Both the position numbers and the translations under genes were made by a program. From assembly GCF_964019385.1 (NCBI RefSeq), contig NC_088653.1, positions 13,078,154 to 13,142,153 on the forward strand: 64,000 bases of DNA. The letters run 5' to 3'. The notes beneath the pieces were generated by a model. That model was not told where the DNA came from. It searched no databases and saw nothing but the letters and a program-made list of their open reading frames with translations. Source of the DNA: Sycon ciliatum. Its lineage: Eukaryota > Porifera > Calcarea > Leucosolenida > Sycettidae. Shown here piece by piece: positions 26,751 through 55,410 of this stretch; position 1 is the first letter of the stretch; each line of letters begins with the position of its first letter.

Positions 26751-27222
26751 TCTAGTCATACTGTCATAAACAGCCAGCATTTTTCCTGCAGCAGTCACAC
26801 CACCATCATCATTATTTCCAGGGAAATCCTCTTACATTGTCAGCTCCTACGTCGTTAGATACAATGTAGGGGGCTGTAGGACCGGCTCGTCAAAAATAGA
26901 GAACCTGAACAAGCGTGCTCGGGACGTCTCAGCAATCGTAGTATGCTTGAGCACTCCTATAAAAACTTGATCAATGGCAAAATCGTTCCCCACAGAAAAA
27001 TCATACTTTGCGGGTCTTGCGTTGCACGCTTGGAGGTGAAGTACAGAAGGCGAGTCGATCCGAGTATGACCTTTCGGACTGGACTGGACTGAACTATTCC
27101 AAAAATAACAACGAGGGGTCACGGGTGCGAGTCAACCCCTGTGTCACGGATTTCTGTGCCGTGTCACCTCCCTAGTTTGAGTACGACAGTAGTAAGTGCG
27201 GGGCGGGTTCTGGCCCACTTTT

Positions 27223-27311
27223 TGACCTTTGACCTTTGGGCCAAATAAGGCACACTGTGTCGGTCGTGCTTGGTCTGGCCCCGGGACCCCCCAGAGTTTG
27301 ACCTTTGACCC
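27223..27311. promoter_or_regulatory. Two DR1-type nuclear-receptor motifs in the left end
   Basis: Minus-strand AGGTCAAAGGTCA at 27,223-27,235 and GGGTCAAAGGTCA at 27,299-27,311 are direct repeats of AGGTCA with one-base spacing. Mirror copies are at 42,577-42,589 and 42,501-42,513. DR1 is the classic site of RXR/HNF4-type receptors; use by the host is an inference. Confidence 0.45.
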
Positions 27312-27352
27312 CTGGCATGCCATAAATGTGCCATAAAGGTTCTTTTCCGTGG

Positions 27353-27648
27353 CGAACGTGCACTTGTGCACGTTCGGTGCATTCGCACCGGGGAGTAGTA
27401 AAATACGTACTATTCCCTGATTCGCACATCATAGATGTGCATTGCATGCAGCGAATGACATATTGCGCATGCGAGCATACGCACGCGGAGCATGTGACCT
27501 TCAGTGGCCCTGCGGAAAAGACGCAGTGCAACACAAGGTGTACTAGTACACGTGTCATTATACTACTCCCTGATTCGCACTTCGTAGATGTGCAGCAAAC
27601 AAGTTCACGTTCCGTGCATTCGTTTTATTCGCACATCGTAGATGTGCA
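27353..27648. repeat. Cluster of short palindromes in the terminal region
   Basis: A perfect palindrome with 11-bp arms and a 2-base loop (CGAACGTGCAC...) is at 27,353-27,376. Three copies of TTCGCACATCRTAGATGTGC (one with a single change) lie at 27,421-27,441, 27,574-27,594 and 27,628-27,648, each a hairpin with GCACATC/GATGTGC arms. All recur mirrored near 42,164-42,459. They could be origin, packaging or regulator-binding sites. Confidence 0.7.
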
Positions 27649-27706
27649 CTGATTGACAAGTTGCCCATACAGAGCATGCCTAATCGGCTTTTCGATCGAG
27701 AATTTA

Positions 27707-27755
27707 TTATTCTTTATTTCCACGATGGCCCATGGCCAATAAGGAAGATAATATG
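27707..27755 (-). repeat. LINE 3'-end fragment in left arm
   Basis: Minus-strand TTATTGGCCATGGGCCATCG followed by TGGAAATAAAGAATAATAAA matches the LINE 3' end at 62,627-62,660. Mirror copy at about 42,057-42,105. Confidence 0.55.
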
Positions 27756-28177
27756 ATTCAAATCAGTCCAGAATCATATAAAATCAGTCTAGCAAGTAAG
27801 GAAATCAACACATTGCAGGGGGATGGGGTCACGATGGGGTACAGAGAATGTTCAAATTCGGCCATATTATGAGTCCCAAGATCAGAATACGGCTCAACGT
27901 AGTACTTGAAGTCACCGTTTCCATTACGTCATGTACATTTACACACACTCTGTTGAAGCACTGAAACATCGATTTTCGGCGAATTCAACAAGCGAAATTT
28001 GAAAATTCGGCGAAAAGATGGGTGATTTCTTCAAAACCACTTTCTTCGGCGAATTTTTCGGCCGGCCGATTTGGGAAATGCCTACTGTCCATGCAGGTGC
28101 ATTAGATGCATATTTCTATTTTGATCGGGATACAGTTAGAATCAACCGGCTACGCCCGGAGTATCATGCATCAAAAA

Positions 28178-28240
28178 AGACCATAGGTCTGTGGGAAACA
28201 CCCTAGTAAAATAAATAAAATAATAATAATAATAATAAAA
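28178..28240 (+). repeat. Retroelement 3' tail in left arm
   Basis: 'agaccataggtctgtgggaa' then 'acaccctagtaaaataaata' and an (AAT)n tail; same family as 11,490 and 32,428. Mirror copy at about 41,572-41,634. Confidence 0.6.
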
Positions 28241-28430
28241 CAATTATTGAAGGGGTATCACAGTGAAGCAGTGTTGCTACGCACCACAAATCCCCTCTGC
28301 ACTGTACCGAATTTATACTGGAGAATCCAGAGTGGCCAGCAAAGAGTCACAACCCGCGGGTATCCAGTCACACTAAGGCATGACCACCATTCCCCACATA
28401 TTCACTGTAACAAAACACAATACTGTTTAT

Positions 28431-28537
28431 TTGTTTCGCTCTGTAAAGAGCACTTAGGGTTCCCTGTAACAAGACGGCAACGTCTGTAGGGCCTTCCCTA
28501 TCAAAATAATAAATTCTACTACTACTACTACTACTAC
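28431..28537 (+). mobile_element. 107-bp retroelement tail present only in the left arm
   Basis: The left arm carries 'gtaaagagcacttagggttc', 'gcaacgtctgtagggccttc' and a (TAC)n run between 'caatactgttta' and 'ctataatacac'. In the right arm these two flanks are joined directly (about 41,380-41,392, opposite strand). It reads as the 5'-truncated 3' end of a LINE/SINE with a microsatellite tail, inserted after the arms formed (or lost precisely from the right arm). Confidence 0.75.
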
Positions 28538-28584
28538 TATAATACACTTTTATTTAAATTGACTTGGATGAGTCTGTAGAAGAG

Positions 28585-28650
28585 AACACAATGCACGCAC
28601 ACGCACGCATGCGCAGACACACACACGCACACACGCACACACACACACAT
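28585..28650. repeat. (CA)n-rich microsatellite
   Basis: Alternating CA/CG-rich tract in the left arm, mirrored at about 41,269-41,334. Confidence 0.8.
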
Positions 28651-29084
28651 ATAGGTTATATTGCTATACACGTATCTAGGGTTTAGGAAGCACGAGAATA
28701 TGTCGAAGCACCCACACATACCCCTTCATGCAGTGTACTTCAGTAGCCCAACACATTACGACTGCTCAGGACCATCACAAAATACATAACGACTGCTATA
28801 GCACAGGACCATCACAAAACACTACACACTGTTACTACACTGCACACACAGTTACTACACTACGCCTGTTACAAGTACTTACAAATAATTTTGAAACAAA
28901 TGGCACATCCTGAAGGCGGCAGCCCCAGACCTTCATACATCATCATCTGTGAAACCAAACATGAGCGCACACAAACACTATTAGTGTCACGAACACGAAA
29001 GCAGGGTAAGACAAGAGGATACGAAACAAGTAAGTATCGCTATAACGAGGGGGTAAGTATACATGTAAACAGAGCAGTGCTTAC

Positions 29085-29514
29085 TTACAGGGTCCTAATA
29101 CGCTCTACGGCGTCCTGGTATTCGGACTGCAACAGCAGTCCGACTTGCCGACCCTCCCAGTAACGGGTTAGATGGGCCGTACCCGTGAGGTGGGCGACCA
29201 CGGCTGGGCCTCCCACCAGCCTTTCTCCACTGTAAAAACGAAAGAAACCGCAGAAAGCAGAGTGTCTTAGAGCTCTTTTGTTGGGGGAGAGAGCTAGGAG
29301 CACTGCACACTTACCATTTGTCACAATATATGATGAGAAAGAGGCGGCGCTTGACGCACCGCCTCAGGTGCTGGAATAGGGGTATTACCCCTGACATTCG
29401 AACGCTACAGTGACAAGTGAAAGCCATTTGGACTGTAATGATACTGAAGTGAAGGTGTGAACCGCAAAGCAAGACCTTTACCTTCTTCCTGTCGAATTCG
29501 CTCCCCAGCTGCAT
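29085..29514 (-). CDS. Two-exon gene, 114 residues, unrecognised (left arm)
   Basis: Exon 1 is 29,315-29,514 and exon 2 is 29,085-29,229, separated by an 85-bp intron (29,230-29,314) with donor GTAAGT and acceptor TTTTTACAG after a pyrimidine-rich stretch. The two exons join in frame at a split Cys codon and the stop falls at 29,085-29,087. The product has a basic region (RRCVKRRL) before the junction and a hydrophilic, weakly helical end (EYQDAVERIRTL); no domain recognised. It is divergent from the MORN/RING gene, with starts 175 bp apart, suggesting a shared promoter region. A start at an internal Met is possible. The frame crossing the splice and its identical copy in the other arm support a real gene. 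Confidence 0.55.
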
Positions 29515-29689
29515 ACCGACATCATCCGCTAAAATCCAATCATACCAAGTAACGCAAAGGTCATCTGTTGACCTTTTGGACTTTTCAACTCTTATCCAAA
29601 ACCACCAAGAGGAAAAAACCAGGATGAAGAAGACGTCAGTTGTAGAAGCGTTTGTGGAGGAGTTGTTACATTATTCTCAGTAAATAGAT

Positions 29690-30742
29690 ATGGCTGATAC
29701 ATTCGGTGTAGACTTGGACGACCGGTCGTGGTCTCTCACCACGGGTCCTTTACTAATAGAAAGGCGGACGCCAATAAGAACAGTTGTGGAGTTGGCAGAT
29801 CAAAACGCGCAGCAAGAAATTTGGCACGTCGATGGTAGACTCCATCGGGAGGACGGACCAGCTCTTGTTGATAGTAGGGGAGTGTCCGCCTGGTGCTATG
29901 GAGGTCGCCTTCATCGCGTTAATGAACCGGCTTGGATAGGACGGGGTAGCATAGAGTACTACCTTAACGGCGCCCGTCATAGAGCCGGCGGTCCTGCAGT
30001 CAGTTATTATGACGCCACATGCGGTATTCTACGGTGGTATCACCACGGAAGACTCCACAGGTATGATGGCCCTGCAGTGGAAACATTTTCAGACCTTGGT
30101 GAAGACTCTGAGGGGTTCTACCGACACCGCGAAGAGTGGTATTGGAATGGCGTCAGACAAAGGATCGGCGACGGCCCTGCTCTGACGGAGAGATTTGATG
30201 GCGCCTATTTGCTGGAAGCCTGGTATGTCCAAGGGCGTCTACACAGAGTAGACGGACCAGCCAGGATCACTCGGAGTGATGATGGTATCACCATCCAGTG
30301 GTATTATCACGACCGGCTCCACAGGGAGAATGCGCCAGCCGTGATACGCAGGGAAGGTAACAACCGTGTACGGGAGTGGTACCGATACAACCTTCGGCAT
30401 AGGGAAGATGGGCCTGCTTTCATCTCTCAGGAGGAGGAGGGTATCTATCAGTGGTACCTCAACGGGGTGTATTACGGTGACCACCATCAAGACCAGGCAA
30501 TACACCCCATGGAGCTGCAGTACATCAATGTAGTGCCTACTAAGGTAGACTCGTCAGCAATAAGTCATGAGTCCATTTGTGTGATTTGTCAGGATACCCT
30601 GGACCGTCCTCTATCCAAGTTGGAGTGTGGTCATGAATTTCACTTCCACTGTATCAAGGAGTGGATCAGTTCTGCCCCCAGCCCAACTTGCCCAACCTGC
30701 CGCTACTCCATGACTGCTGAGGACTTGGTTGAGTTCTTGTAG
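29690..30742 (+). CDS. MORN-like-repeat protein with carboxyl-terminal RING-H2 (left arm)
   Basis: 350 residues. About nine repeats of a W-Y-x-x-G-R-L-H-R-x-D-G-P-A pattern fill residues 40-270 (e.g. WHVDGRLHREDGPA, WYHHGRLHRYDGPA, WYVQGRLHRVDGPA). A RING-H2 finger follows with ligands C297, C300, C313, H315, H318, C321, C334 and C337. Such repeats are frequent in large DNA viruses and some bacteria; RING fingers typically make E3 ubiquitin ligases. Inferred role: a ubiquitin ligase whose repeat fan binds a substrate, possibly a host factor. Single exon; start chosen as the first ATG, in the context gatATGG. The right-arm copy differs by Arg to His in the third repeat. No truncation. Confidence 0.85.
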   Translation: MADTFGVDLDDRSWSLTTGPLLIERRTPIRTVVELADQNAQQEIWHVDGRLHREDGPALVDSRGVSAWCYGGRLHRVNEPAWIGRGSIEYYLNGARHRAGGPAVSYYDATCGILRWYHHGRLHRYDGPAVETFSDLGEDSEGFYRHREEWYWNGVRQRIGDGPALTERFDGAYLLEAWYVQGRLHRVDGPARITRSDDGITIQWYYHDRLHRENAPAVIRREGNNRVREWYRYNLRHREDGPAFISQEEEGIYQWYLNGVYYGDHHQDQAIHPMELQYINVVPTKVDSSAISHESICVICQDTLDRPLSKLECGHEFHFHCIKEWISSAPSPTCPTCRYSMTAEDLVEFL

Positions 30743-30749
30743 TAATACA

Positions 30750-31060
30750 TCACACAGTTGCATGTAGGCGACTACGAATGACCAGTCATGTGCTACAGAC
30801 GGACACGGACATGCCACCCTAAGTAGCCATGAGCGGCTATTTGGACAAGGGCAACAAAGCACCCCGTGGGCGGCCAAGGTTGACACTAGCCACAAGTCTG
30901 GTCGCTCAGTTGAATAAGCTGGGTGTGCCCATGAAGACCATGGAAGACCTTTCCAGGTGTTGGCAACAAGCAGAGGACAAGACAGACTGGAAGAAACTGT
31001 GCAGCTCGACACTCGAGGACAAATCAGTATCGGCAGCTACTACACCTTGCTGATGATGCT
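30750..31060 (+). pseudogene. LINE ORF2 tail fragment just after the RING gene (left arm)
   Basis: A degenerate frame has MTSHVLQTDTDMP, then GRPRLTLATSLV and a W-ending segment, matching the GHVLRM...RGRP end of LINE ORF2 as at 8,860-9,080. It contains an internal stop. It starts within tens of bases of the RING stop codon, so the retroelement landed in the 3' flank of the gene. Confidence 0.6.
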
Positions 31061-31194
31061 CACAAGACAGAAGTGGGAAAAACACTGAATTTCTTTATTT
31101 AATGCTCAACTACACGAAATGTGTTATTATTATTATACATATTCAACTGTACTCAGTCTGGCTGACTGCCATTCTCTACCACACATTACCGGAC

Positions 31195-32232
31195 ACTGTT
31201 GTGGGTGTTGTCGTTATCGTCGTCGTTGTTGATGTTGTTGTTGTTGGTTGTTGTCGTCGTTATCGTCGTCGTTGCTGATTTTGTTGTTGGCTGTTGTTGT
31301 CGGTTGTTGTCGGTTGTTGTCGTCGTTTGTTGTTGGATGTTGCTGGTTATTGTTGGTTGTTGTTGGTTGTTGTTGGGTGTTGTTGTTGGTTGTTGTTGGC
31401 TGTTGTCGGTTGTTGTCAGGTGTTGTTGGTTGTTGTTGGTTGTTGTTGTTGTCGGTTGTTGTCGGTTGTTGGGTGTTGTTGTCGGTTGTTGGGTGTTCTT
31501 GTTGGTTGGTGTTGGTTGTTGTTGGTTGTTGTCGGTTGTTGTCCGTTGTTGTCGGCTGTTGCTGGTTGTTGTTGGTTGTTGTTGTTGGCTGTTGTTGGTT
31601 GTTGTTGGATGTTGTTGTCGGTTGTTGTCGGTTGCTAGTTGTTGGTTGTAGTTGGTTGTTGTCGGTTGGTGTTGGTTGTTGTTGGTTGTTTTCGGCTGTT
31701 GTCGGTTGTTGTTGTTTATTGTTGGCTGTTGTTGGTTGTTGTTGGGTGTTGTTTGGTATTGTTGTCGGTTGTTGCCGGTTGTTGTTTGCTGTTGTTGGTT
31801 GTTGTTGCCGGTTGTTGTCGGTTGTTGGGTGTTGTTGTCGGTTGTTGGGTGTTGTTGTTGGTTGTTGTTGGTTGTTGTTGGTTGTTGTTGGTTGTTGTCC
31901 GTTGTTGTCGGTTGTTGTTGGTTGTTGTTGGTTGTTGTTGGCTGTTGTTGGTTGTTGTTGGTTGTTGTTGTCGGCTGTTGTCGGTTGTTGGTTGTTGTTG
32001 TTGTTGGTTGTTGTTGGCTGTAGTTGGTTGTTATCGGTTGTTGTTGGTTGTTGGATGTTGTTGTCGGTTGTTGTCGGTTGTTGTTGGTTGTTGTTGGTTG
32101 TTGTTGGTTGTTGTTGGTTGTTGTTGGCTGTTGTTGGCTGTTGTTGGTTGTTGTCGGTTGTTGTCGGTTGTTGGGTGTTGTTGTTGGTTGTTGTTGGTTG
32201 TTGTCGGTTGTTGTCGGTTATTGTGTTTTAAT
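31195..32232. repeat. TTG-rich minisatellite (left arm)
   Basis: About 1.04 kb of variants of GTTGTTGGTTGTTGTCGGTT, with nearly all G and T on the plus strand. All three plus frames stay open for long distances (Val/Leu/Cys/Gly-rich), which is a by-product of the repeat and not evidence of genes. Mirror copy at 37,687-38,724, with C/A on the plus strand. Confidence 0.95.
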
Positions 32233-32427
32233 CATTATTTTGTTCATTATCCAGGAGGATGTTGCTATGATCCAATACTATTTTTCGCATATATGAGACA
32301 AGTTTGTGTAGCGTTAGTGTGACGTGGGGTATGCTGATTGGATGTGAGGTGGTGAGAGTATGCTGATTGACCGATAACAATTAGTGGAAGGGATAAAGTA
32401 ATGCACTGCTTGTGCAGCGTAACCAAA

Positions 32428-32480
32428 CACATGGTCTGTGGGAAACACCTTAGTAAAATAAATAAAATAATAATAACATG
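32428..32480 (+). repeat. Retroelement 3' tail in left arm (second)
   Basis: 'catggtctgtgggaaacacc' then 'ttagtaaaataaataaaata' and AAT repeats, as at 28,178. Mirror copy at about 37,439-37,491. Confidence 0.6.
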
Positions 32481-32625
32481 AATTGCCACCGGCACTTGAG
32501 AGACTCGAGCCTCGCCGCCTTGTTCAAATCGGACTTGGTAGCTTCGTACTGGAACTTAATCTTCTTCTTTTTGAGGTATGACCGTACAAAAACGCGCTTG
32601 GATTTTTTCATTTATTTTATTTATT

Positions 32626-33000
32626 TTATTTTATTTTTTTCATTGCAACATTTTTAGCAGATGTCCACTCGTGAAACAAAGGTGAATCTGGAACGAATAA
32701 ATGGGCCATGTCAAAGGCATGACGAGTCTCGAAGTCTTCACATTCACGATGGAACCTTGTCATGATTGACGCATTCCTTGATGGTGCGCACATGAAATCA
32801 CCCTGGCTCATCTTTTCCAACTCCATTCTTTTCACATCCTGCAACCCATACCCTACTAGTATCAGTGGGGACGCTAGAATCAGAAGAGGCAAGGCAGCAC
32901 TCTTCCGTGGATGTATTACTCGACACAACACCACCCATACTTGTTTTCTAGAAGTTTTGACTATAATGATATATTGCAGCAGGAAGTAGTATACAGTCAA
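32626..33000 (-). CDS. Possible small membrane protein or exon (left arm)
   Basis: An open frame of 124 codons whose first in-frame ATG is at codon 59, giving only about 66 residues. The upstream part includes a hydrophobic segment (ALPLLILASPLILVGYGL) that would be a membrane helix. A TTATAG-type acceptor upstream makes it possible that this is a downstream exon. The two arms carry the same frame. No family recognised. Confidence 0.3.
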   Translation of the reverse strand: MTVYYFLLQYIIIVKTSRKQVWVVLCRVIHPRKSAALPLLILASPLILVGYGLQDVKRMELEKMSQGDFMCAPSRNASIMTRFHRECEDFETRHAFDMAHLFVPDSPLFHEWTSAKNVAMKKIK

Positions 33001-33060
33001 ATAGGATAGGATAAGAATGAATGATCAACTGTCTGATAAAGAATGCAGTTCATTAAGGAC

Positions 33061-33831
33061 TTATTGGAAGGTCTCTACCAGCTGATCGTCATGTTGGACG
33101 GCGACACTGCATAATGATATGAAGCTCTCAGTTAGCTGTTTCAGTTCCGTGGTAGAAAGTGTCATGTGTGCGTCCAAAGAACGATGAAAACATCTGGGGT
33201 CCACGTTGATGCAGACGATTGGAGCAACAGCAAGACGTACCTTCAACGCTTGCTCGTCAATGTCGAGGGAGACTGCCCCGGGGTAGATGAAAACATCTTG
33301 TTCCACATCCAGTTCGAACCAGCTGGTCGGGACTAGCTTGCTTTCACCGTTGATGTACACCCGACATTGACCGTAGGACGAACATGATGGGTAGAAGTTG
33401 GTCTTGATCTTCTCCACACGTCCTCTTCGGAGAGTGTCACGGAGCGATGGACAAGTCTTGATCAAGTTCGTAATGATGAACTCAGTGGACTCATTCAGTT
33501 CGATGTAAACCTGTCCTTGAGCATCTTTGCGAGCTGTTGCCGTACTACCACAGGCTGGTAGAGCTCCTGAAGGGAAGTACATCTTATAACCAGGCTTGTA
33601 GAAGGATCTACCTGATGACTTGTAGGACAGTTGCATGTCCTCCTGAAACCCATCTACCACAATCTCTTTGTGGAGCTTGGTAGGAGCAGGTGACACATAG
33701 CGACGCTTAGCCGGTACTGCCTTCGAAGAGAGCACAACTAGAGGAGGGTCAGCAGGAAGAGCGAAATTCTTCCTCACCCGCCGCTCGTATAGGTTATCCA
33801 TCTTCCAGGAAGCGAAGGGAGAACAACTCAT
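33061..33831 (-). CDS. Unrecognised 256-residue protein (left arm)
   Basis: The start is set at the first ATG after the TATA box (TATAAATA at about 33,881-33,888). A second Met ten codons on (M-D-N-L-Y) is an alternative. The protein begins with a basic segment (ERRVRKNF), has a central region with FPSGALPACGST and FIITNLIKTCPSLRD, then CSSYGQCRVYINGESKLVP and a beta-rich region with DVFIYPGAVSLDIDEQALKVRLAV. No transmembrane helix or zinc site is evident. I do not recognise the family; structural, DNA-binding or capsid-associated roles are all open. Arms differ at two residues (Leu/Gln and Ala/Val). Four CCAAT-bearing 33-bp repeats lie upstream. Confidence 0.75.
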   Translation of the reverse strand: MSCSPFASWKMDNLYERRVRKNFALPADPPLVVLSSKAVPAKRRYVSPAPTKLHKEIVVDGFQEDMQLSYKSSGRSFYKPGYKMYFPSGALPACGSTATARKDAQGQVYIELNESTEFIITNLIKTCPSLRDTLRRGRVEKIKTNFYPSCSSYGQCRVYINGESKLVPTSWFELDVEQDVFIYPGAVSLDIDEQALKVRLAVAPIVCINVDPRCFHRSLDAHMTLSTTELKQLTESFISLCSVAVQHDDQLVETFQ

Positions 33832-33879
33832 CAGCACTGTATTCGATGAACGAATGACTCGACTACAGGACAACCACCC

Positions 33880-34074
33880 GTATTTATACAAGGCAGAGAC
33901 GGAGGCGGGTTGAAGTGATAAAATATGTGTCAGCTAGGTCAACCAATCACCATCAAGCCCGCCAAAAACATTTGACCACTCAGCATTGAGCCCACCAAAA
34001 ACATTTGACCAACCAGCATCAAACCCGCCAAAAGCATTGTGTCCAATCAGCGGCATGCCCACCAAAATCATATC
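33880..34074 (-). promoter_or_regulatory. TATA box plus four 33-bp CCAAT repeats (left arm)
   Basis: Minus-strand TATAAATA at about 33,881-33,888. Upstream, four imperfect 33-bp units of the form TTTTGG(T/C)GGGC..GATGCTG.TTGGTCAAATG fill about 33,930-34,070; each has an ATTGG/GTTGG core (CCAAT reversed). The repeats sit in the 180 bp between the TATA and the upstream TFIIB-like stop codon. Confidence 0.6.
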
Positions 34075-34857
34075 TCATCTTAAAGATTCCTTACATGATA
34101 CCGCCACTTTAGTGAACTGATACAGTATGGAAATAAGATCAGAGTCAAACGTGTGCAAGTTCTGAATCACGTGATCAAGTGAATAGGTTTCCCAACAATA
34201 GGCATCAATCAATGATACCATAAGAGATGTATCAGATGGAGATAAAATCAGCAAATTCGTACGCAACGTGGACAGTTGAGAAGAAGACACCATCCTGGTC
34301 GACTCCATGAGACGCAGTACATATAGGAGTGGAAAATGCTGAGGAAGAGGTTTCATGATTCGACTGAACCTCAACCATGATACATTGCTACGAGGTAAGT
34401 AGGAACGCAGTTTACGTAGTACATCCACATTCGTATCGTATACTATGCAGGATAATGCTATAGCATAGTTTATACTCTTGTACAAACAGGATTTTTTCAT
34501 CGCAAGTATCTGCTCCCGAAGAGTGTGTACGCAAAGCTGATCGGATAAGAGTTCAGTTTTCGAAAGTAACTGCAAAAGATGACGATCCACACCGCTTAAC
34601 CGCTCATGTACCGCGTAAGGCTTCTTCATCAAACTACATCTCCTATGCACATCATCTTCAGGGAAGTAAATCACCGCCATGACAAGTCCACACGAAGAAC
34701 ACACGTATCTTCCTTCATGTAAAACATGATCAAGATGTTGACACTGTTTTTCCTCCCCGTATTGCTCTTCTTCTTCTTCTTCTTCTTCTTCTTCATCCTT
34801 CTCATGAAGTCTCCTGTCACGTACATAAGCAGGTAAGATCTTAAATTCAGAATCCAT
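34075..34857 (-). CDS. TFIIB-like zinc-ribbon protein (left arm)
   Basis: 260 residues from the ATG at 34,857. An acidic run of about ten Glu residues (about 22-31) is followed by a zinc ribbon with C-Q-H...C-S-S-C-G spacing (CQHLDHVLHE and YVCSSCGLV), the amino-terminal signature of TFIIB-type factors. The remainder is helical and Leu/Ser-rich and could be a diverged cyclin-like core. TFIIB recruits RNA polymerase to promoters; TFIIB-like genes occur in several large DNA viruses. Inferred role: transcription of the element's own TATA-type promoters. A TATA box lies 55-65 bp upstream, next to the palindrome centre. The right-arm copy has one Glu fewer. Confidence 0.65.
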   Translation of the reverse strand: MDSEFKILPAYVRDRRLHEKDEEEEEEEEEEQYGEEKQCQHLDHVLHEGRYVCSSCGLVMAVIYFPEDDVHRRCSLMKKPYAVHERLSGVDRHLLQLLSKTELLSDQLCVHTLREQILAMKKSCLYKSINYAIALSCIVYDTNVDVLRKLRSYLPRSNVSWLRFSRIMKPLPQHFPLLYVLRLMESTRMVSSSQLSTLRTNLLILSPSDTSLMVSLIDAYCWETYSLDHVIQNLHTFDSDLISILYQFTKVAVSCKESLR

Positions 34858-34912
34858 CTTCACTCCTCACCAACATCCTCATTATGACACTATATCCAGC
34901 ATGATATCTACT

Positions 34913-34920
34913 TTATATAA
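34913..34920 (-). promoter_or_regulatory. TATA box of the left TFIIB-like gene
   Basis: Minus-strand TTATATAA, about 56 bp upstream of the ATG. Confidence 0.6.
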
Positions 34921-34932
34921 CCAATCCTATCC

Positions 34933-34989
34933 CGTGTCGGAGAGGGTATGAGGTCCTCCACCCCAATGGTTGTACCTGATAATTGCCCT
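34933..34989. other. 57-bp asymmetric centre of the palindrome
   Basis: The only part of the element present once. It has no obvious internal symmetry and separates two divergent TATA boxes. It would be the loop if a single strand folded back. Confidence 0.9.
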
Positions 34990-35001
34990 GGATAGGATTG
35001 G

Positions 35002-35009
35002 TTATATAA
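35002..35009 (+). promoter_or_regulatory. TATA box of the right TFIIB-like gene
   Basis: Plus-strand TTATATAA, mirror of the box at 34,913. The two fire outward from the 57-bp centre. Confidence 0.6.
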
Positions 35010-35064
35010 AGTAGATATCATGCTGGATATAGTGTCATAATGAGGATGTTGGTGAGGAGTGAAG

Positions 35065-35844
35065 ATGGATTCTGAATTTAAGATCTTACCTGCTTATGTA
35101 CGTGACAGGAGACTTCATGAGAAGGATGAAGAAGAAGAAGAAGAAGAAGAAGAGCAATACGGGGAGGAAAAACAGTGTCAACATCTTGATCATGTTTTAC
35201 ATGAAGGAAGATACGTGTGTTCTTCGTGTGGACTTGTCATGGCGGTGATTTACTTCCCTGAAGATGATGTGCATAGGAGATGTAGTTTGATGAAGAAGCC
35301 TTACGCGGTACATGAGCGGTTAAGCGGTGTGGATCGTCATCTTTTGCAGTTACTTTCGAAAACTGAACTCTTATCCGATCAGCTTTGCGTACACACTCTT
35401 CGGGAGCAGATACTTGCGATGAAAAAATCCTGTTTGTACAAGAGTATAAACTATGCTATAGCATTATCCTGCATAGTATACGATACGAATGTGGATGTAC
35501 TACGTAAACTGCGTTCCTACTTACCTCGTAGCAATGTATCATGGTTGAGGTTCAGTCGAATCATGAAACCTCTTCCTCAGCATTTTCCACTCCTATATGT
35601 ACTGCGTCTCATGGAGTCGACCAGGATGGTGTCTTCTTCTCAACTGTCCACGTTGCGTACGAATTTGCTGATTTTATCTCCATCTGATACATCTCTTATG
35701 GTATCATTGATTGATGCCTATTGTTGGGAAACCTATTCACTTGATCACGTGATTCAGAACTTGCACACGTTTGACTCTGATCTTATTTCCATACTGTATC
35801 AGTTCACTAAAGTGGCGGTATCATGTAAGGAATCTTTAAGATGA
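35065..35844 (+). CDS. TFIIB-like zinc-ribbon protein (right arm)
   Basis: 259 residues; same protein as at 34,075-34,857 with nine instead of ten Glu in the acidic run. The ATG at 35,065 is preferred over the upstream in-frame GTG. Zinc-ribbon ligands C..H and C..C are intact, so both copies look functional. Confidence 0.65.
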   Translation: MDSEFKILPAYVRDRRLHEKDEEEEEEEEEQYGEEKQCQHLDHVLHEGRYVCSSCGLVMAVIYFPEDDVHRRCSLMKKPYAVHERLSGVDRHLLQLLSKTELLSDQLCVHTLREQILAMKKSCLYKSINYAIALSCIVYDTNVDVLRKLRSYLPRSNVSWLRFSRIMKPLPQHFPLLYVLRLMESTRMVSSSQLSTLRTNLLILSPSDTSLMVSLIDAYCWETYSLDHVIQNLHTFDSDLISILYQFTKVAVSCKESLR

Positions 35845-36038
35845 GATATGATTTTGGTGGGCATGCCGCTGATTGGACAAAATGCTTTTGGCGGGTTTGA
35901 TGCTGGTTGGTCAAATGTTTTTGGTGGGCTCAATGCTGAGTGGTCAAATGTTTTTGGCGGGCTTGATGGTGATTGGTTGACCTAGCTGACACATATTTTA
36001 TCACTTCAACCCGCCTCCGTCTCTGCCTTGTATAAATA
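35845..36038 (+). promoter_or_regulatory. 33-bp CCAAT repeats and TATA box (right arm)
   Basis: Mirror of 33,880-34,074. TATAAATA at 36,031-36,038, with the first ATG 50 bp further on. One visible difference between arms in the first repeat (ggacAaaatgc against ggacCaaatgc-type reading: A here, C in the other arm's complement). Confidence 0.6.
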
Positions 36039-36087
36039 CGGGTGGTTGTCCTGTAGTCGAGTCATTCGTTCATCGAATACAGTGCTG

Positions 36088-36858
36088 ATGAGTTGTTCTC
36101 CCTTCGCTTCCTGGAAGATGGATAACCTATACGAGCGGCGGGTGAGGAAGAATTTCGCTCTTCCTGCTGACCCTCCTCAAGTTGTGCTCTCTTCGAAGGC
36201 AGTACCGGCTAAGCGTCGCTATGTGTCACCTGCTCCTACCAAGCTCCACAAAGAGATTGTGGTAGATGGGTTTCAGGAGGACATGCAACTGTCCTACAAG
36301 TCATCAGGTAGATCCTTCTACAAGCCTGGTTATAAGATGTACTTCCCTTCAGGAGCTCTACCAGCCTGTGGTAGTACGGTAACAGCTCGCAAAGATGCTC
36401 AAGGACAGGTTTACATCGAACTGAATGAGTCCACTGAGTTCATCATTACGAACTTGATCAAGACTTGTCCATCGCTCCGTGACACTCTCCGAAGAGGACG
36501 TGTGGAGAAGATCAAGACCAACTTCTACCCATCATGTTCGTCCTACGGTCAATGTCGGGTGTACATCAACGGTGAAAGCAAGCTAGTCCCGACCAGCTGG
36601 TTCGAACTGGATGTGGAACAAGATGTTTTCATCTACCCCGGGGCAGTCTCCCTCGACATTGACGAGCAAGCGTTGAAGGTACGTCTTGCTGTTGCTCCAA
36701 TCGTCTGCATCAACGTGGACCCCAGATGTTTTCATCGTTCTTTGGACGCACACATGACACTTTCTACCACGGAACTGAAACAGCTAACTGAGAGCTTCAT
36801 ATCATTATGCAGTGTCGCCGTCCAACATGACGATCAGCTGGTAGAGACCTTCCAATAA
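36088..36858 (+). CDS. Unrecognised 256-residue protein (right arm)
   Basis: Mirror of 33,061-33,831. The codon at 36,178-36,180 is CAA (Gln) where the left arm has Leu, and a Val replaces an Ala in the CGST(V/A)TARKD segment. The frame is fully open. Confidence 0.75.
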   Translation: MSCSPFASWKMDNLYERRVRKNFALPADPPQVVLSSKAVPAKRRYVSPAPTKLHKEIVVDGFQEDMQLSYKSSGRSFYKPGYKMYFPSGALPACGSTVTARKDAQGQVYIELNESTEFIITNLIKTCPSLRDTLRRGRVEKIKTNFYPSCSSYGQCRVYINGESKLVPTSWFELDVEQDVFIYPGAVSLDIDEQALKVRLAVAPIVCINVDPRCFHRSLDAHMTLSTTELKQLTESFISLCSVAVQHDDQLVETFQ

Positions 36859-36918
36859 GTCCTTAATGAACTGCATTCTTTATCAGACAGTTGATCATTC
36901 ATTCTTATCCTATCCTAT

Positions 36919-37293
36919 TTGACTGTATACTACTTCCTGCTGCAATATATCATTATAGTCAAAACTTCTAGAAAACAAGTATGGGTGGTGTTGTGTCGAG
37001 TAATACATCCACGGAAGAGTGCTGCCTTGCCTCTTCTGATTCTAGCGTCCCCACTGATACTAGTAGGGTATGGGTTGCAGGATGTGAAAAGAATGGAGTT
37101 GGAAAAGATGAGCCAGGGTGATTTCATGTGCGCACCATCAAGGAATGCGTCAATCATGACAAGGTTCCATCGTGAATGTGAAGACTTCGAGACTCGTCAT
37201 GCCTTTGACATGGCCCATTTATTCGTTCCAGATTCACCTTTGTTTCACGAGTGGACATCTGCTAAAAATGTTGCAATGAAAAAAATAAAATAA
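36919..37293 (+). CDS. Possible small membrane protein or exon (right arm)
   Basis: Mirror of 32,626-33,000 with the same open frame. The first ATG is at codon 59; the hydrophobic segment lies before it. Confidence 0.3.
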   Translation: MTVYYFLLQYIIIVKTSRKQVWVVLCRVIHPRKSAALPLLILASPLILVGYGLQDVKRMELEKMSQGDFMCAPSRNASIMTRFHRECEDFETRHAFDMAHLFVPDSPLFHEWTSAKNVAMKKIK

Positions 37294-37686
37294 AATAAAT
37301 AAAATAAATGAAAAAATCCAAGCGCGTTTTTGTACGGTCATACCTCAAAAAGAAGAAGATTAAGTTCCAGTACGAAGCTACCAAGTCCGATTTGAACAAG
37401 GCGGCGAGGCTCGAGTCTCTCAAGTGCCGGTGGCAATTCATGTTATTATTATTTTATTTATTTTACTAAGGTGTTTCCCACAGACCATGTGTTTGGTTAC
37501 GCTGCACAAGCAGTGCATTACTTTATCCCTTCCACTAATTGTTATCTGTCAATCAGCATACTCTCACCACCTCACATCCAATCAGCATACCCCACGTCAC
37601 ACTAACGCTACACAAACTTGTCTCATATATGCGAAAAATAGTATTGGATCATAGCAACATCCTCCTGGATAATGAACAAAATAATG

Positions 37687-38724
37687 ATTAAAACACAATA
37701 ACCGACAACAACCGACAACAACCAACAACAACCAACAACAACACCCAACAACCGACAACAACCGACAACAACCAACAACAGCCAACAACAGCCAACAACA
37801 ACCAACAACAACCAACAACAACCAACAACAACCAACAACAACCGACAACAACCGACAACAACATCCAACAACCAACAACAACCGATAACAACCAACTACA
37901 GCCAACAACAACCAACAACAACAACAACCAACAACCGACAACAGCCGACAACAACAACCAACAACAACCAACAACAGCCAACAACAACCAACAACAACCA
38001 ACAACAACCGACAACAACGGACAACAACCAACAACAACCAACAACAACCAACAACAACCAACAACAACACCCAACAACCGACAACAACACCCAACAACCG
38101 ACAACAACCGGCAACAACAACCAACAACAGCAAACAACAACCGGCAACAACCGACAACAATACCAAACAACACCCAACAACAACCAACAACAGCCAACAA
38201 TAAACAACAACAACCGACAACAGCCGAAAACAACCAACAACAACCAACACCAACCGACAACAACCAACTACAACCAACAACTAGCAACCGACAACAACCG
38301 ACAACAACATCCAACAACAACCAACAACAGCCAACAACAACAACCAACAACAACCAGCAACAGCCGACAACAACGGACAACAACCGACAACAACCAACAA
38401 CAACCAACACCAACCAACAAGAACACCCAACAACCGACAACAACACCCAACAACCGACAACAACCGACAACAACAACAACCAACAACAACCAACAACACC
38501 TGACAACAACCGACAACAGCCAACAACAACCAACAACAACACCCAACAACAACCAACAACAACCAACAATAACCAGCAACATCCAACAACAAACGACGAC
38601 AACAACCGACAACAACCGACAACAACAGCCAACAACAAAATCAGCAACGACGACGATAACGACGACAACAACCAACAACAACAACATCAACAACGACGAC
38701 GATAACGACAACACCCACAACAGT
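37687..38724. repeat. CAA-rich minisatellite (right arm)
   Basis: Reverse complement of the array at 31,195-32,232; the units I compared are in the same order, so the array was copied as a whole and has not visibly re-expanded. Confidence 0.95.
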
Positions 38725-38858
38725 GTCCGGTAATGTGTGGTAGAGAATGGCAGTCAGCCAGACTGAGTACAGTTGAATATGTATAATAATAATAACACAT
38801 TTCGTGTAGTTGAGCATTAAATAAAGAAATTCAGTGTTTTTCCCACTTCTGTCTTGTG

Positions 38859-39170
38859 AGCATCATCAGCAAGGTGTAGTAGCTGCCGATACTGATTTGT
38901 CCTCGAGTGTCGAGCTGCACAGTTTCTTCCAGTCTGTCTTGTCCTCTGCTTGTTGCCAACACCTGGAAAGGTCTTCCATGGTCTTCATGGGCACACCCAG
39001 CTTATTCAACTGAGCGACCAGACTTGTGGCTAGTGTCAACCTTGGCCGCCCACGGGGTGCTTTGTTGCCCTTGTCCAAATAGCCGCTCATGGCTACTTAG
39101 GGTGGCATGTCCGTGTCCGTCTGTAGCACATGACTGGTCATTCGTAGTCGCCTACATGCAACTGTGTGAT
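38859..39170 (-). pseudogene. LINE ORF2 tail fragment (right arm)
   Basis: Mirror of 30,750-31,060. Confidence 0.6.
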
Positions 39171-39176
39171 GTATTA

Positions 39177-40229
39177 CTACAAGAACTCAACCAAGTCCTC
39201 AGCAGTCATGGAGTAGCGGCAGGTTGGGCAAGTTGGGCTGGGGGCAGAACTGATCCACTCCTTGATACAGTGGAAGTGAAATTCATGACCACACTCCAAC
39301 TTGGATAGAGGACGGTCCAGGGTATCCTGACAAATCACACAAATGGACTCATGACTTATTGCTGACGAGTCTACCTTAGTAGGCACTACATTGATGTACT
39401 GCAGCTCCATGGGGTGTATTGCCTGGTCTTGATGGTGGTCACCGTAATACACCCCGTTGAGGTACCACTGATAGATACCCTCCTCCTCCTGAGAGATGAA
39501 AGCAGGCCCATCTTCCCTATGCCGAAGGTTGTATCGGTACCACTCCCGTACACGGTTGTTACCTTCCCTGCGTATCACGGCTGGCGCATTCTCCCTGTGG
39601 AGCCGGTCGTGATAATACCACTGGATGGTGATACCATCATCACTCCGAGTGATCCTGGCTGGTCCGTCTACTCTGTGTAGACGCCCTTGGACATACCAGG
39701 CTTCCAGCAAATAGGCGCCATCAAATCTCTCCGTCAGAGCAGGGCCGTCGCCGATCCTTTGTCTGACGCCATTCCAATACCACTCTTCGCGGTGTCGGTA
39801 GAACCCCTCAGAGTCTTCACCAAGGTCTGAAAATGTTTCCACTGCAGGGCCATCATACCTGTGGAGTCTTCCGTGGTGATACCACCGTAGAATACCGCAT
39901 GTGGCGTCATAATAACTGACTGCAGGACCGCCGGCTCTATGATGGGCGCCGTTAAGGTAGTACTCTATGCTACCCCGTCCTATCCAAGCCGGTTCATTAA
40001 CGCGATGAAGGCGACCTCCATAGCACCAGGCGGACACTCCCCTACTATCAACAAGAGCTGGTCCGTCCTCCCGATGGAGTCTACCATCGACGTGCCAAAT
40101 TTCTTGCTGCGCGTTTTGATCTGCCAACTCCACAACTGTTCTTATTGGCGTCCGCCTTTCTATTAGTAAAGGACCCGTGGTGAGAGACCACGACCGGTCG
40201 TCCAAGTCTACACCGAATGTATCAGCCAT
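39177..40229 (-). CDS. MORN-like-repeat protein with RING-H2 (right arm)
   Basis: Mirror of 29,690-30,742: 350 residues, all eight RING ligands intact. His replaces Arg in the third repeat (NGA-H-H-R-A-G-G). Both copies appear able to encode the protein. Confidence 0.85.
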   Translation of the reverse strand: MADTFGVDLDDRSWSLTTGPLLIERRTPIRTVVELADQNAQQEIWHVDGRLHREDGPALVDSRGVSAWCYGGRLHRVNEPAWIGRGSIEYYLNGAHHRAGGPAVSYYDATCGILRWYHHGRLHRYDGPAVETFSDLGEDSEGFYRHREEWYWNGVRQRIGDGPALTERFDGAYLLEAWYVQGRLHRVDGPARITRSDDGITIQWYYHDRLHRENAPAVIRREGNNRVREWYRYNLRHREDGPAFISQEEEGIYQWYLNGVYYGDHHQDQAIHPMELQYINVVPTKVDSSAISHESICVICQDTLDRPLSKLECGHEFHFHCIKEWISSAPSPTCPTCRYSMTAEDLVEFL

Positions 40230-40404
40230 ATCTATTTACTGAGAATAATGTAACAACTCCTCCACAAACGCTTCTACAACTGACGTCTTCTTCATCCTGG
40301 TTTTTTCCTCTTGGTGGTTTTGGATAAGAGTTGAAAAGTCCAAAAGGTCAACAGATGACCTTTGCGTTACTTGGTATGATTGGATTTTAGCGGATGATGT
40401 CGGT

Positions 40405-40834
40405 ATGCAGCTGGGGAGCGAATTCGACAGGAAGAAGGTAAAGGTCTTGCTTTGCGGTTCACACCTTCACTTCAGTATCATTACAGTCCAAATGGCTTTC
40501 ACTTGTCACTGTAGCGTTCGAATGTCAGGGGTAATACCCCTATTCCAGCACCTGAGGCGGTGCGTCAAGCGCCGCCTCTTTCTCATCATATATTGTGACA
40601 AATGGTAAGTGTGCAGTGCTCCTAGCTCTCTCCCCCAACAAAAGAGCTCTAAGACACTCTGCTTTCTGCGGTTTCTTTCGTTTTTACAGTGGAGAAAGGC
40701 TGGTGGGAGGCCCAGCCGTGGTCGCCCACCTCACGGGTACGGCCCATCTAACCCGTTACTGGGAGGGTCGGCAAGTCGGACTGCTGTTGCAGTCCGAATA
40801 CCAGGACGCCGTAGAGCGTATTAGGACCCTGTAA
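40405..40834 (+). CDS. Two-exon gene, 114 residues, unrecognised (right arm)
   Basis: Mirror of 29,085-29,514. Exon 1 is 40,405-40,604, intron 40,605-40,689 (GTAAGT...TTTTTACAG), exon 2 40,690-40,834. A second GTAAGT overlaps the stop codon at 40,831-40,837, so an alternative third exon after an acceptor near 40,970 is possible but would stop almost at once. Confidence 0.55.
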
Positions 40835-42822
40835 GTAAGCACTGCTCTGTTTACATGTATACTTACCCCCTCGTTATAGCGATACTTACTTGTTTCGTAT
40901 CCTCTTGTCTTACCCTGCTTTCGTGTTCGTGACACTAATAGTGTTTGTGTGCGCTCATGTTTGGTTTCACAGATGATGATGTATGAAGGTCTGGGGCTGC
41001 CGCCTTCAGGATGTGCCATTTGTTTCAAAATTATTTGTAAGTACTTGTAACAGGCGTAGTGTAGTAACTGTGTGTGCAGTGTAGTAACAGTGTGTAGTGT
41101 TTTGTGATGGTCCTGTGCTATAGCAGTCGTTATGTATTTTGTGATGGTCCTGAGCAGTCGTAATGTGTTGGGCTACTGAAGTACACTGCATGAAGGGGTA
41201 TGTGTGGGTGCTTCGACATATTCTCGTGCTTCCTAAACCCTAGATACGTGTATAGCAATATAACCTATATGTGTGTGTGTGTGCGTGTGTGCGTGTGTGT
41301 GTCTGCGCATGCGTGCGTGTGCGTGCATTGTGTTCTCTTCTACAGACTCATCCAAGTCAATTTAAATAAAAGTGTATTATAGTAAACAGTATTGTGTTTT
41401 GTTACAGTGAATATGTGGGGAATGGTGGTCATGCCTTAGTGTGACTGGATACCCGCGGGTTGTGACTCTTTGCTGGCCACTCTGGATTCTCCAGTATAAA
41501 TTCGGTACAGTGCAGAGGGGATTTGTGGTGCGTAGCAACACTGCTTCACTGTGATACCCCTTCAATAATTGTTTTATTATTATTATTATTATTTTATTTA
41601 TTTTACTAGGGTGTTTCCCACAGACCTATGGTCTTTTTTGATGCATGATACTCCGGGCGTAGCCGGTTGATTCTAACTGTATCCCGATCAAAATAGAAAT
41701 ATGCATCTAATGCACCTGCATGGACAGTAGGCATTTCCCAAATCGGCCGGCCGAAAAATTCGCCGAAGAAAGTGGTTTTGAAGAAATCACCCATCTTTTC
41801 GCCGAATTTTCAAATTTCGCTTGTTGAATTCGCCGAAAATCGATGTTTCAGTGCTTCAACAGAGTGTGTGTAAATGTACATGACGTAATGGAAACGGTGA
41901 CTTCAAGTACTACGTTGAGCCGTATTCTGATCTTGGGACTCATAATATGGCCGAATTTGAACATTCTCTGTACCCCATCGTGACCCCATCCCCCTGCAAT
42001 GTGTTGATTTCCTTACTTGCTAGACTGATTTTATATGATTCTGGACTGATTTGAATCATATTATCTTCCTTATTGGCCATGGGCCATCGTGGAAATAAAG
42101 AATAATAAATTCTCGATCGAAAAGCCGATTAGGCATGCTCTGTATGGGCAACTTGTCAATCAGTGCACATCTACGATGTGCGAATAAAACGAATGCACGG
42201 AACGTGAACTTGTTTGCTGCACATCTACGAAGTGCGAATCAGGGAGTAGTATAATGACACGTGTACTAGTACACCTTGTGTTGCACTGCGTCTTTTCCGC
42301 AGGGCCACTGAAGGTCACATGCTCCGCGTGCGTATGCTCGCATGCGCAATATGTCATTCGCTGCATGCAATGCACATCTATGATGTGCGAATCAGGGAAT
42401 AGTACGTATTTTACTACTCCCCGGTGCGAATGCACCGAACGTGCACAAGTGCACGTTCGCCACGGAAAAGAACCTTTATGGCACATTTATGGCATGCCAG
42501 GGGTCAAAGGTCAAACTCTGGGGGGTCCCGGGGCCAGACCAAGCACGACCGACACAGTGTGCCTTATTTGGCCCAAAGGTCAAAGGTCAAAAAGTGGGCC
42601 AGAACCCGCCCCGCACTTACTACTTACGACTCCCTGGTGACCATGTAGGTCATGTTGTGGCGCAGATCCGTTTGATCTCTTCAGGTCTCCAGCCTCTGGT
42701 GGGGAGAGGTGGGAGTTTCTCCGTTTTTGGCCACCAGGGAGTGGAGTGGAGATGATGTCTACCGGTGGTGGTGGCGGCGGTGGTGGCGGCGGCGGCGGCG
42801 GGGAGGAGGTTGAGCCCTGCTG

Positions 42823-44835: not shown

Positions 44836-45066
44836 TTATTATTACTAGTTTGGTTTACATCAATATCAAATTCAAATAGTTGTATAGCAGGGTGTCGTTG
44901 CCTCCTTCTTGTCCGAGTTGAAGCGACCTTCGCTAGTACAAGTAGAGCTATCGTGGATCGCTGACAGGCTGCTGAATGTCTCCTGTCAAGTACACTCGTT
45001 GATTTGGGGCACATTCACTGCGGCCCAGTCCAGGTGTATTTGAATATTAGTTTAGTTTACATCAAT
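44827..45066. repeat. Partial extra copy of the foldback end
   Basis: 'tcaatatcaaattcaaatag' followed by 'tatagcagggtgtcgttgcc' at about 44,860-44,912 repeats the end of the foldback at 45,060-45,112, and 'aggtgtatttgaat' precedes both copies. It suggests two successive insertions or a target-side duplication. Confidence 0.5.
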
Positions 45067-46379
45067 ATCAAATTCAAATAGTTTTATAGCAGGGTGTCGT
45101 TGCCTCCTCCATGATCCATCATCGACCCCAGCGACTGCGTGGAAGCCTGCAGCTGCAGTGGGGGTGTGGCAGAGTACTCTACTACTCCCTGGTTGCAGTC
45201 CTAGTGTTGCATACTCTGGTGGACGTATTGCTTGGAGAGAGAAGGAGAGAGTTGGAGATCGTCCGCGATCGGGGCCAATGAGTTGGGAGACGGATCCCTC
45301 AGCAACTATCCACTCATAACGATGCAGTATCGTTTGCGAGATCTCCAGAACGTACAGTACATAGGCAAAGAAGAACAATATGAAAACTGAATACCAATCG
45401 GCAACCAAACAACACCAGAACTCAGCGCAGAAGTAGCACACCAAACTCCAAAGCCATCAACACGCAGGTTCCGCCAAAGCGGATCCGCGAAAGCGGAGGT
45501 TCCGCTCGCATATTTTTGGCGTAGCGAAATCCAAACTTTCCGCCAAAGCGTAACTTACGCCTTAAGCGTAAGCTACGCTTTGGCGGAACCGCCAAAAAAA
45601 GTGCATGTGTGACCGAGGCCTTATTTTTTTGGCGTAGCGAAATCCAAACTTTCCGCCAAAGCGTAACTTACGCCTCCGCAATTGCCGAGGCAACGGCGGA
45701 AGCGTAAGTTACGCTTTGGCGGAACCGCCAAAAAAAGTGCATGTGTGACCGGGGCGGCCTAAGGCCCCGGTCACACATGCACTTTTTTGGCTACACATGC
45801 ACTTTTTTTGGCGGTTCCGCCAAAGCGTAACTTACGCTTCCGCCGTTGCCTCGGCAATTGCGGAGGCGTACGTTACGCTTTGGCGGAAAGTTTGGATTTC
45901 GCTACGCCAAAAAAATGCGAGCGGACCCTCCGCTTTCGCGGATCCGCTTTGGCGGAACCTGCATGGTGATGGCTTTGGAGTTCGGTGTGCTACTTCTGCA
46001 CTGAGTTCTGGTGTTGTTTGGTTGCCGTTTGGTATATAGTTTTCTATTAAAATATTGTTCTTCTTTGCCAATGAACTGTACGTTCTGGAGATCTCGCAAG
46101 CAATACTGCATCGTTATGAGTGAATAGTTGGTGAGGGAATAACTCCGAATCCGTCTCCCAACGAGTCATTGGCCCCGATCGCGGACGATCTCCAACTCTC
46201 TCCTTCTCTCTCCAAGCAATACGTCCACCAGAGTATGCAACACTAGGACTGCAACCAGGGAGTAGTAGAGTACTCTGCCACACCCTCACTGCAGCTGCAG
46301 GCATCCACGCAGTCGCTGGGTCGATGATGGATCATGGAGGAGGCAACGACACCCTGCTATAAAACTATTTGAATTTGAT
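45067..46379. mobile_element. 1.3-kb foldback element with nested MITEs
   Basis: Both halves are inverted copies (ATCAAATTCAAATAGTTTTA then TAGCAGGGTGTCGTTGCC at the left; the reverse complement ends at 46,379). Arms are about 550 bp or more, with scattered differences. The centre (45,470-45,960) is built from nested MITE copies with ends GGCC(T/C)CGGTCACACATGCAC and inner TTCCGCCAAAGCGTAACTTA motifs; one left-side copy is duplicated. No coding content is credible here. The termini relate it to the element at 12,282-13,139. Confidence 0.75.
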
Positions 46380-46667
46380 ACTATTTTTTTACTTATTATC
46401 ATGATTGTAGAGCTCAGATCAGCTGTCTCATTTCTGCTGTCTACAACGCGACTTGCATGGCAAAGGCGAAGGGGAGTCGAACAATAGATCGCTGTTGGTG
46501 ACGGCCTGACGGCAAGGCAGTGATACTTTTGACTTTCGTGATGGCAAAGTAAGTATTCACGTAAAGCCGTGAGATCCGTAGATTCTACTATTTCATGTGT
46601 AGATCGACTACAGACAGATAAGGGCTTGAAAGTGCTACGTCACAGCATAGCAACAATTTCAAAAATT

Positions 46668-48448: not shown

Positions 48449-48597
48449 TGTAGTACAATCTAGTAGTAGGCGGCGCACTTCACGATCGATCGTCCTTCGT
48501 GCATTACTTTGTTTTCGTCTCTTTCAAGACTTTGTCCCTGGTCGCTTACAATTATTATTCTATAGTGCCAGTGGTCGGCGGTACGCGAGTTGCTGGA

Positions 48598-49545: not shown

Positions 49546-49875
49546 GTACGTGTGTGTTGAATTGTTAGAACTACAGTGTAGGTTAAAAGAGGATAAATAC
49601 GAAATGAAAGCAATGTTGTGTTGTTGTGGCACGAGTTCCCAAGAACTATAAGAGCTTCATAGTGTTCAACTTACTTTGCCTTGCCACCTGGACCTTGTCA
49701 TTTTCCTGTGTTAGAACATCTCGATATCCGGGAGAAGAGGGGGGGGGATGGGGTTGTGAGTAAATCTAGAGTTTCCCCCGGTCGTTGGTTCCAACATTAT
49801 CTCGAAGCCTGCAGTCCACGAACGTTGAGACGGCCATGTACATGTACGCACATGTCTTCTGTAAAATTCCCTAGG

Positions 49876-55357: not shown

Positions 55358-55410
55358 TTCTCCCCCCTGGTAACAGGGAACCGATGACCTGTTACAAGTC
55401 ACAAACAAAG

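Follow-up and report, generated by a model that had tools for sequence, protein, structure and literature searches.

A long perfect palindrome is expected to be highly unstable when it lies in a chromosome. How, then, does a mobile element of more than 15 kb come to stand in a sponge genome as one almost perfect palindrome? To address this question, we analysed a 64,000-nucleotide stretch of Sycon ciliatum DNA (hereafter the window; RefSeq assembly GCF_964019385.1, contig NC_088653.1, positions 13,078,154 to 13,142,153 of the forward strand) that contains such an element at 27188-42624, and searched the genome (538 Mb, 313 contigs) for its relatives. The element belongs to a family of whole-palindrome mobile elements, which are likely satellites of a Polinton, copied and inserted by its enzymes (rough probability 0.72). 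The family members agree in ends, 6-bp target duplications and length with a Polinton of the same genome that has a protease and an integrase, the two arms of a copy are nearly identical and carry differences private to that copy, and central loops are inherited.

The element is almost entirely an inverted repeat

Alignment of the window with itself showed that the element (15,437 bp) consists of a left arm of 7,745 bp (27188-34932) and a right arm of 7,635 bp (34990-42624) in inverted orientation around a 57-bp spacer (34933-34989). It starts with AGTAGTAAGTGCGGGGCGGG and ends with the complement of AGTAGTAAGTGCGGGGCGGG, and TACGAC is found immediately outside either terminus as a 6-bp target duplication. 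The arm lengths, the 57-bp centre, the coordinates and the flanking TACGAC given in an earlier sequence-only reading of the window were thus correct. Over about 7.6 kb the arms differ by 5 substitutions, one 3-bp indel at 34766 and one 107-bp insertion (28428-28534), which is present in the left arm only and without which both arms of ten other copies align. Each arm holds a 997-bp minisatellite with a 10-bp unit, and the two minisatellite-bearing stretches are letter-identical. A search of 27000-42800 against Rfam gave no match. The features of the element are as follows:

27182..27187, unstranded, left TACGAC target duplication (terminal sequence comparison)
27188..34932, + strand, left arm, 7,745 bp (self-alignment)
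27188..27670, + strand, outer end (arm 1-483), common to the terminal inverted repeat of the Polinton at 87-94% identity by pieces
28428..28534, unstranded, 107-bp insertion, left arm only (arm alignment)
29690..30742, + strand, 350-residue protein with LHREDGPA-type repeats and a RING finger, left copy
31228..32224, unstranded, minisatellite (10-bp unit), left copy
31993..32404, + strand, Polinton-like stretch, left copy (comparison with the Polinton)
33061..33891, - strand, 276-residue frame (256-residue form), left copy
34075..34863, - strand, 262-residue protein with a weak TFIIB-type zinc-ribbon match, homologue of a Polinton gene, left copy
34933..34989, unstranded, asymmetric 57-bp centre, the shared centre trimmed on one side (compared across copies)
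34990..42624, - strand, right arm, 7,635 bp (self-alignment)
35059..35844, + strand, zinc-ribbon protein, right copy
36028..36858, + strand, 276-residue frame, right copy
37515..37926, - strand, Polinton-like stretch, right copy (mirror of 31993-32404)
37695..38691, unstranded, minisatellite, right copy
39177..40229, - strand, LHREDGPA/RING protein, right copy
42625..42630, unstranded, right TACGAC target duplication (terminal sequence comparison)

A family of palindromes with common ends and target duplications

The 17-bp end AGTAGTWAGTGCGGGGC occurs 341 times in the genome (165 forward, 176 reverse), and the reversed-pattern control gave 0 matches. Among the first 100 of these ends, 76 form 38 inward-facing pairs and 24 are unpaired; 27 of the 38 pairs are spaced 14-16 kb apart. 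The sequence-only reading had asked whether other copies with these ends are also palindromic. Ten further copies were fetched from both ends (10 of 15 other end pairs, with 40 of 474 candidates scored and hence a bias towards close relatives of the window), and all ten were palindromic, as were two copies seen in part, namely the middle 8.5 kb of the longest pair and a 9.9-kb piece at an end without an exact partner. In L009 and L015, about 1.7 and 4 kb, respectively, are left unpaired in the middle of the palindrome. Including the window itself, 13 of 13 copies of the window class are palindromic where both arms were seen wholly or partly, and the inner arm genes were found in all ten fetched copies, though L009 and L015 carry them in broken or split form.

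Inspection of 20 midpoints (the first 20 of the 26 unfetched 14-16-kb pairs from the first 100 of the 341 ends) placed 12 in the window class, with the palindrome centre in view in 10 and arm only in 2, four in a self-inverted group with other content, and four in a group that is not self-inverted. Of 31 elements bounded by these ends, 29 are flanked by exact 6-bp duplications. They comprise the window element, 9 of the 10 fetched copies and 19 of 20 elements, the Polinton described below included, that were taken in order from the 35 pairs among the first 100 ends that had not been fetched.

Two candidates for a different kind of element were rejected. The first, which at 24.6 kb is the longest pair among the 38, was considered as an autonomous element; its middle is a palindrome with an inserted retroelement-like frame. 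L030 is a copy broken by two other insertions, one within the terminal repeat and the second farther inward, which we take to be Harbinger-like and similar to a long interspersed nuclear element (LINE), respectively; its palindromy could not be judged. L021/L022 (G000:C13:2659880-2675101) is palindromic without a 6-bp duplication, and 6 of the 7 differences between the outer 3.6 kb of its arms are transversions; it may have arisen by recombination between copies.

A Polinton with the same ends

Polintons carry 6-bp target duplications and AG...CT ends. An autonomous-type partner with the ends of the palindromes exists in the same genome at C2:32810202-32825686 (15,485 bp, duplication GGCCAG); it was read as four separate pieces and is the sole Polinton-type element read past its midpoint. 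The outer pieces have in common only a 436-bp terminal inverted repeat (97.7%) and short echoes, and form no whole palindrome. The four midpoints that are not self-inverted are 98.8-100% alike. One frame of the element encodes an rve integrase (PF00665, E = 6.6e-11, above the cut-off) together with an adenovirus-type protease (PF00770, E = 4.6e-4, just under the cut-off) and a weak chromo match; other frames encode a collagen-repeat protein and a zinc-ribbon protein. The motifs YTDTDS and DANNLYG presumably mark its polymerase, for which phage records gave no match to the piece concerned, and some frames are capsid-like, which we take as a resemblance only. On the basis of its ends, duplication, length, protease and integrase, we identify this element as a Polinton. 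Its agreement with the palindromes in ends, type of duplication and length bears out the proposal of the sequence-only reading that the window element derives, by full inverted duplication, from a Polinton-like or another integrating double-stranded DNA virus.

Comparison of the window arm with the Polinton showed that two stretches are common to both: the outer 483 bp (87-94% by pieces), and the minisatellite with about 180 bp beyond it, beside the zinc-ribbon gene (91-94%). The zinc-ribbon proteins of the palindrome and the Polinton are distant homologues (E = 1e-20, 30% identity). The shared outer end, the minisatellite stretch and the zinc-ribbon homology together point to the left side of the Polinton as the source of the arm.

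Arms are alike within copies and centres are inherited

To compare arms within and between copies, five blocks (A-E) were aligned across 11 copies, with 21, 22, 22, 21 and 19 of the 22 arms used as full-length matches, respectively. Arms in one copy were 0.03-0.18% apart (mean per block) and arms across copies 2.9-4.2% (median per block), in a sample of copies that leans young. In the trees, the arms of one copy were sisters in 10/10, 11/11, 9/11, 8/10 and 9/9 cases (blocks A-E). Among the 46 sites at which left and right arm differ, 45 were private to one copy and the remaining site was found in two copies with opposite polarity. L025, which carries an insertion of about 2.2 kb in one arm only, was left out of the table of arm differences because its 308 substitutions reflect misalignment around this insertion. 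The minisatellite stretch, compared in 10 copies (the eleventh could not be measured), varies from 1,017 to 1,575 bp across copies, with equal lengths in the two arms in 6/10 and letter-identical arms in 5/10; it spans 1,091 bp in the window and 1,239 bp in L011 and is identical between the arms of each. Private arm differences and equal minisatellites suggest that the arms are made alike between transpositions, or by later conversion.

Three of the ten copies (L021, L023 and L026) have a common centre with the 8-nt spacer GACGTGTT; L019 has the GACGTGTT core within a 14-nt spacer, and the centres of the remaining copies are trimmed or rebuilt. A pattern for the shared centre matched 45 places in the genome (control 0), two of them 752 bp apart, so that 44 elements at most are represented. 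At the tip site beside the spacer, 26 of the 45 places are symmetric, 12 have one common left/right difference and 7 have another. The window and L011 have the same trimmed asymmetric 57-bp centre, one base apart, and no arm difference in common. Asymmetric centres common to several copies argue that whole palindromes are copied, loop included. L017 (G000:C9:704801-718840), which has an exact duplication, has its centre, which is new and shorter, within the zinc-ribbon gene, where a short ATCTT is shared; this is a sign of how centres get rebuilt.

These data also bear on whether the palindromes exist at all. Missed hairpin adapters can create long palindromes, but an assembly or read-folding artefact would hardly produce a 6-bp duplication outside both ends in 29 of 31 elements, private substitutions and insertions in the arms, the same centre at 45 places, and a same-ended, non-palindromic element assembled normally; we consider it very improbable indeed. 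The sequence-only reading had argued against an artefact from one locus, and the argument is strengthened by a palindromic design at many loci with arm differences private to single copies. A one-off foldback was likewise rejected, in view of the many palindromic copies, their duplications, the private arm differences and the 45 shared-centre places.

Genes of the arm

The arm encodes a 350-residue protein with LHREDGPA-type repeats and a RING finger, a 256-276-residue protein without known relatives, and a 242-266-residue protein that weakly matches a TFIIB-type zinc ribbon; no domain exceeded the cut-off in ten more frames of the window arm. All 18 arms compared (of 22) keep the 256-residue frame and residues 51-262 of the zinc-ribbon frame open, with pooled ratios of nonsynonymous to synonymous differences (pN/pS) of 0.61 and 0.69, respectively, over pairs that are not independent. 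The RING protein gave a pooled pN/pS of 0.90 over its first 260 codons (10 arms, pairs again not independent), and it is shortened or broken in 12 of the 22 arms. In both arms of L009, L013, L015, L017, L027 and L025, the RING/repeat gene either lacks a similar internal stretch or no longer keeps its frame.

Seven IMG/VR loci encode relatives of P0099, itself a relative of the LHREDGPA/RING protein; for five of the loci the contigs measure 174-316 kb, a size consistent with large viruses. The two arm proteins of no assigned function had no relatives in IMG/VR; a EukProt entry (scpid42763), a fragment of 174 residues, is 98% identical to the 256-residue protein, and its name follows the identifier style of the calcareous sponge Sycon ciliatum. 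Structure models of the same two proteins were too poor to use (mean predicted local distance difference test scores, pLDDT, of 33 and 47), and a fold search with one of them gave no match at E <= 0.001. Searches of PHROGs returned only two weak matches, both to function-less families, and searches of solved structures returned no significant match.

Could the palindromes be an independent integrating virus, replicated and integrated by the 256-residue, zinc-ribbon and RING proteins, instead of satellites? The open frames in the 18 arms and homologues at 48-53% identity on other contigs would suit such a virus. However, no domain of a polymerase (protein-primed PolB), retroviral-type integrase or transposase was found in the 14 arm frames scanned, nor of an adenovirus-like protease or packaging ATPase (spliced genes were not modelled), and the ends and target duplications match those of the Polinton. 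An independent virus is therefore improbable, and the palindromes are better read as satellites of the Polinton.

A second class of palindromes from the polymerase side of the Polinton

The four self-inverted midpoints with other content have a central frame that differs from the window class and that we take to resemble a Harbinger transposase; L056 and L057 were placed in this second class by their centres alone. At C1:15316938-15331735 the arms show no difference across the 1,001 bp compared and are 96.8% identical to the polymerase-side end of the Polinton (985 columns). At C3:4421474-4436676 the arms are 99% (395 bp) and 100% (42 bp) alike, with about 360 bp in the left piece only, and the match to the polymerase-side end is 97.7% (390 columns). 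Of the 163 candidate matches to the polymerase stretch of the Polinton, 40 were scored; 20 of these form 10 inverted pairs with spacings of 4.6-7.0 kb, and the other 20, the Polinton included, are single in the list. In C1:15316938-15331735, these stretches lie 4,231 and 4,226 bp from the ends, compared with 4,240 bp in the Polinton. Thus the polymerase side of a Polinton, and likely the opposite side too, has given rise to palindromes of about parental length, which argues for fold-back during Polinton replication and not for a single accident.

Inverted pairs were also seen for polymerase (PF03175) matches 6-23 kb apart, with frames of about 1,189 residues and equal or similar scores (G000:C2:9349260/9372360, C1:6025908/6032442 and C3:2883515/2889830); other Polinton families of this genome may form palindromes as well.

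A folded strand as the proposed replication intermediate

Replication in trans, a folded strand, arm repair and packaging would together account for these observations. Copying by the Polinton polymerase, initiated at the shared ends, would displace a strand of full length. Since this strand is self-complementary, it would fold into a hairpin of 7.7 kb, the centre forming the loop. Once paired, the arms would regain identity through mismatch repair or self-templated synthesis, and the unpaired loop would keep its own differences. After second-strand synthesis, the Polinton integrase would insert the palindrome and generate the 6-bp duplication. The equal total lengths suggest a packaging or replication constraint. 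On balance we slightly favour a history in which the Polinton repeatedly gave rise to palindrome satellites from both of its sides, now heritable chromosomal families, each cycle of which passes through a self-folded strand.

The arms could instead be kept alike after ordinary transposition by gene conversion within the chromosome, as is the case for the arms of large sex-chromosome palindromes. This would explain why the arms of a copy are near-identical regardless of the distance between copies, and the inheritance of asymmetric centres through transposition means that the arms need not be remade from one half. Against this stand the second class, with the same ends but other content, which points to a shared cause tied to the Polinton, and the persistence of one-arm insertions, that of 107 bp in the window element and that of about 2.2 kb in L025. 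We regard this account as unlikely, and gene conversion remains the main rival for arm renewal, as it too gives near-identical arms.

Several further observations weigh against Polinton satellites with folded intermediates. Neither L021 nor the pair L081/L082 has a duplication. In blocks C and D, no difference separates the closest of the different copies, and some arm pairs are not sisters. Pfam gave no polymerase match on the Polinton pieces, the genome-wide PF03175 list does not include this Polinton, and the ATPase-like (AAA) matches in one of its frames are weak and below the cut-off. Most of the window arm is unrelated to this Polinton copy; given how little Polinton sequence the window class contains and the zinc-ribbon identity of about 30%, a closer, unseen helper is possible.

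Relation to known systems

Polintons/Mavericks are about 15-25 kb long (PMC6431247). The palindromes resemble these adintovirus-like elements in their 6-bp duplications, AG...CT ends, length of about 15 kb and a terminal repeat shared with the Polinton of the same genome, but they are inverted repeats throughout (7.6-7.7 kb versus 436 bp in the Polinton), and integrase and protease were not found in the arm. Since the 14 arm frames hold no polymerase, integrase, protease or ATPase domain, we classify the element as a palindromic, non-autonomous Polinton satellite. Its nearest working analogues are palindromic defective adenoviruses (symmetric recombinants) and self-complementary parvovirus genomes, which are likewise linear and head-to-head duplicated, with a terminus at each end, and helper-dependent; the sponge palindromes, in contrast, are heritable chromosomal families with genes of their own and target duplications. 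Foldback/Galileo-type transposons also have very long, foldable terminal inverted repeats, whereas the repeats in the sponge make up the whole coding element and have Polinton ends and 6-bp duplications. Virophages are satellites of giant viruses and related to Polintons (PMC6431247). Like them, the sponge element is a predicted parasite of the machinery of a larger double-stranded DNA element, but it is palindromic and its predicted helper is an integrated Polinton and not a giant virus. Among the literature matches listed (titles and abstract starts, with subscription literature and preprints outside), we found no description of whole-palindrome Polintons or satellites.

The genome retains dozens of palindromes of about 15 kb, with 45 places at which the centre is intact and nearly perfect. 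With this family, the Polinton-adenovirus world gains a kind of satellite, and the replication of Polintons in cells can be put to a natural test, in that a folded strand predicts identical newborn arms, inherited loops and conserved length. Arms identical at birth would provide a DNA element with a built-in insertion clock comparable to that of long terminal repeats (LTRs), and a self-complementary, helper-dependent transposon would constitute a new life form among mobile DNAs.

Other features of the window

Upstream of the palindrome, at 22928-24980, a 443-residue frame with a reverse transcriptase domain adjoins a 238-residue frame and is likely LINE-like. An LTR element at 54730-59114 has 632-bp repeats that are 99.8% identical and a 1,001-residue frame with DUF1759, H2C2 and DUF5641 domains; no reverse transcriptase match was found in it, and we take it to be a young BEL/Pao element. 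The window further contains an inverted repeat with arms of about 0.5 kb (45066-46380, 92% identical), a 353-residue unbroken frame with a protein kinase domain (48499-49560), and a minisatellite with an 18-bp unit in about 41 copies, in which several frames are open (49871-50620).

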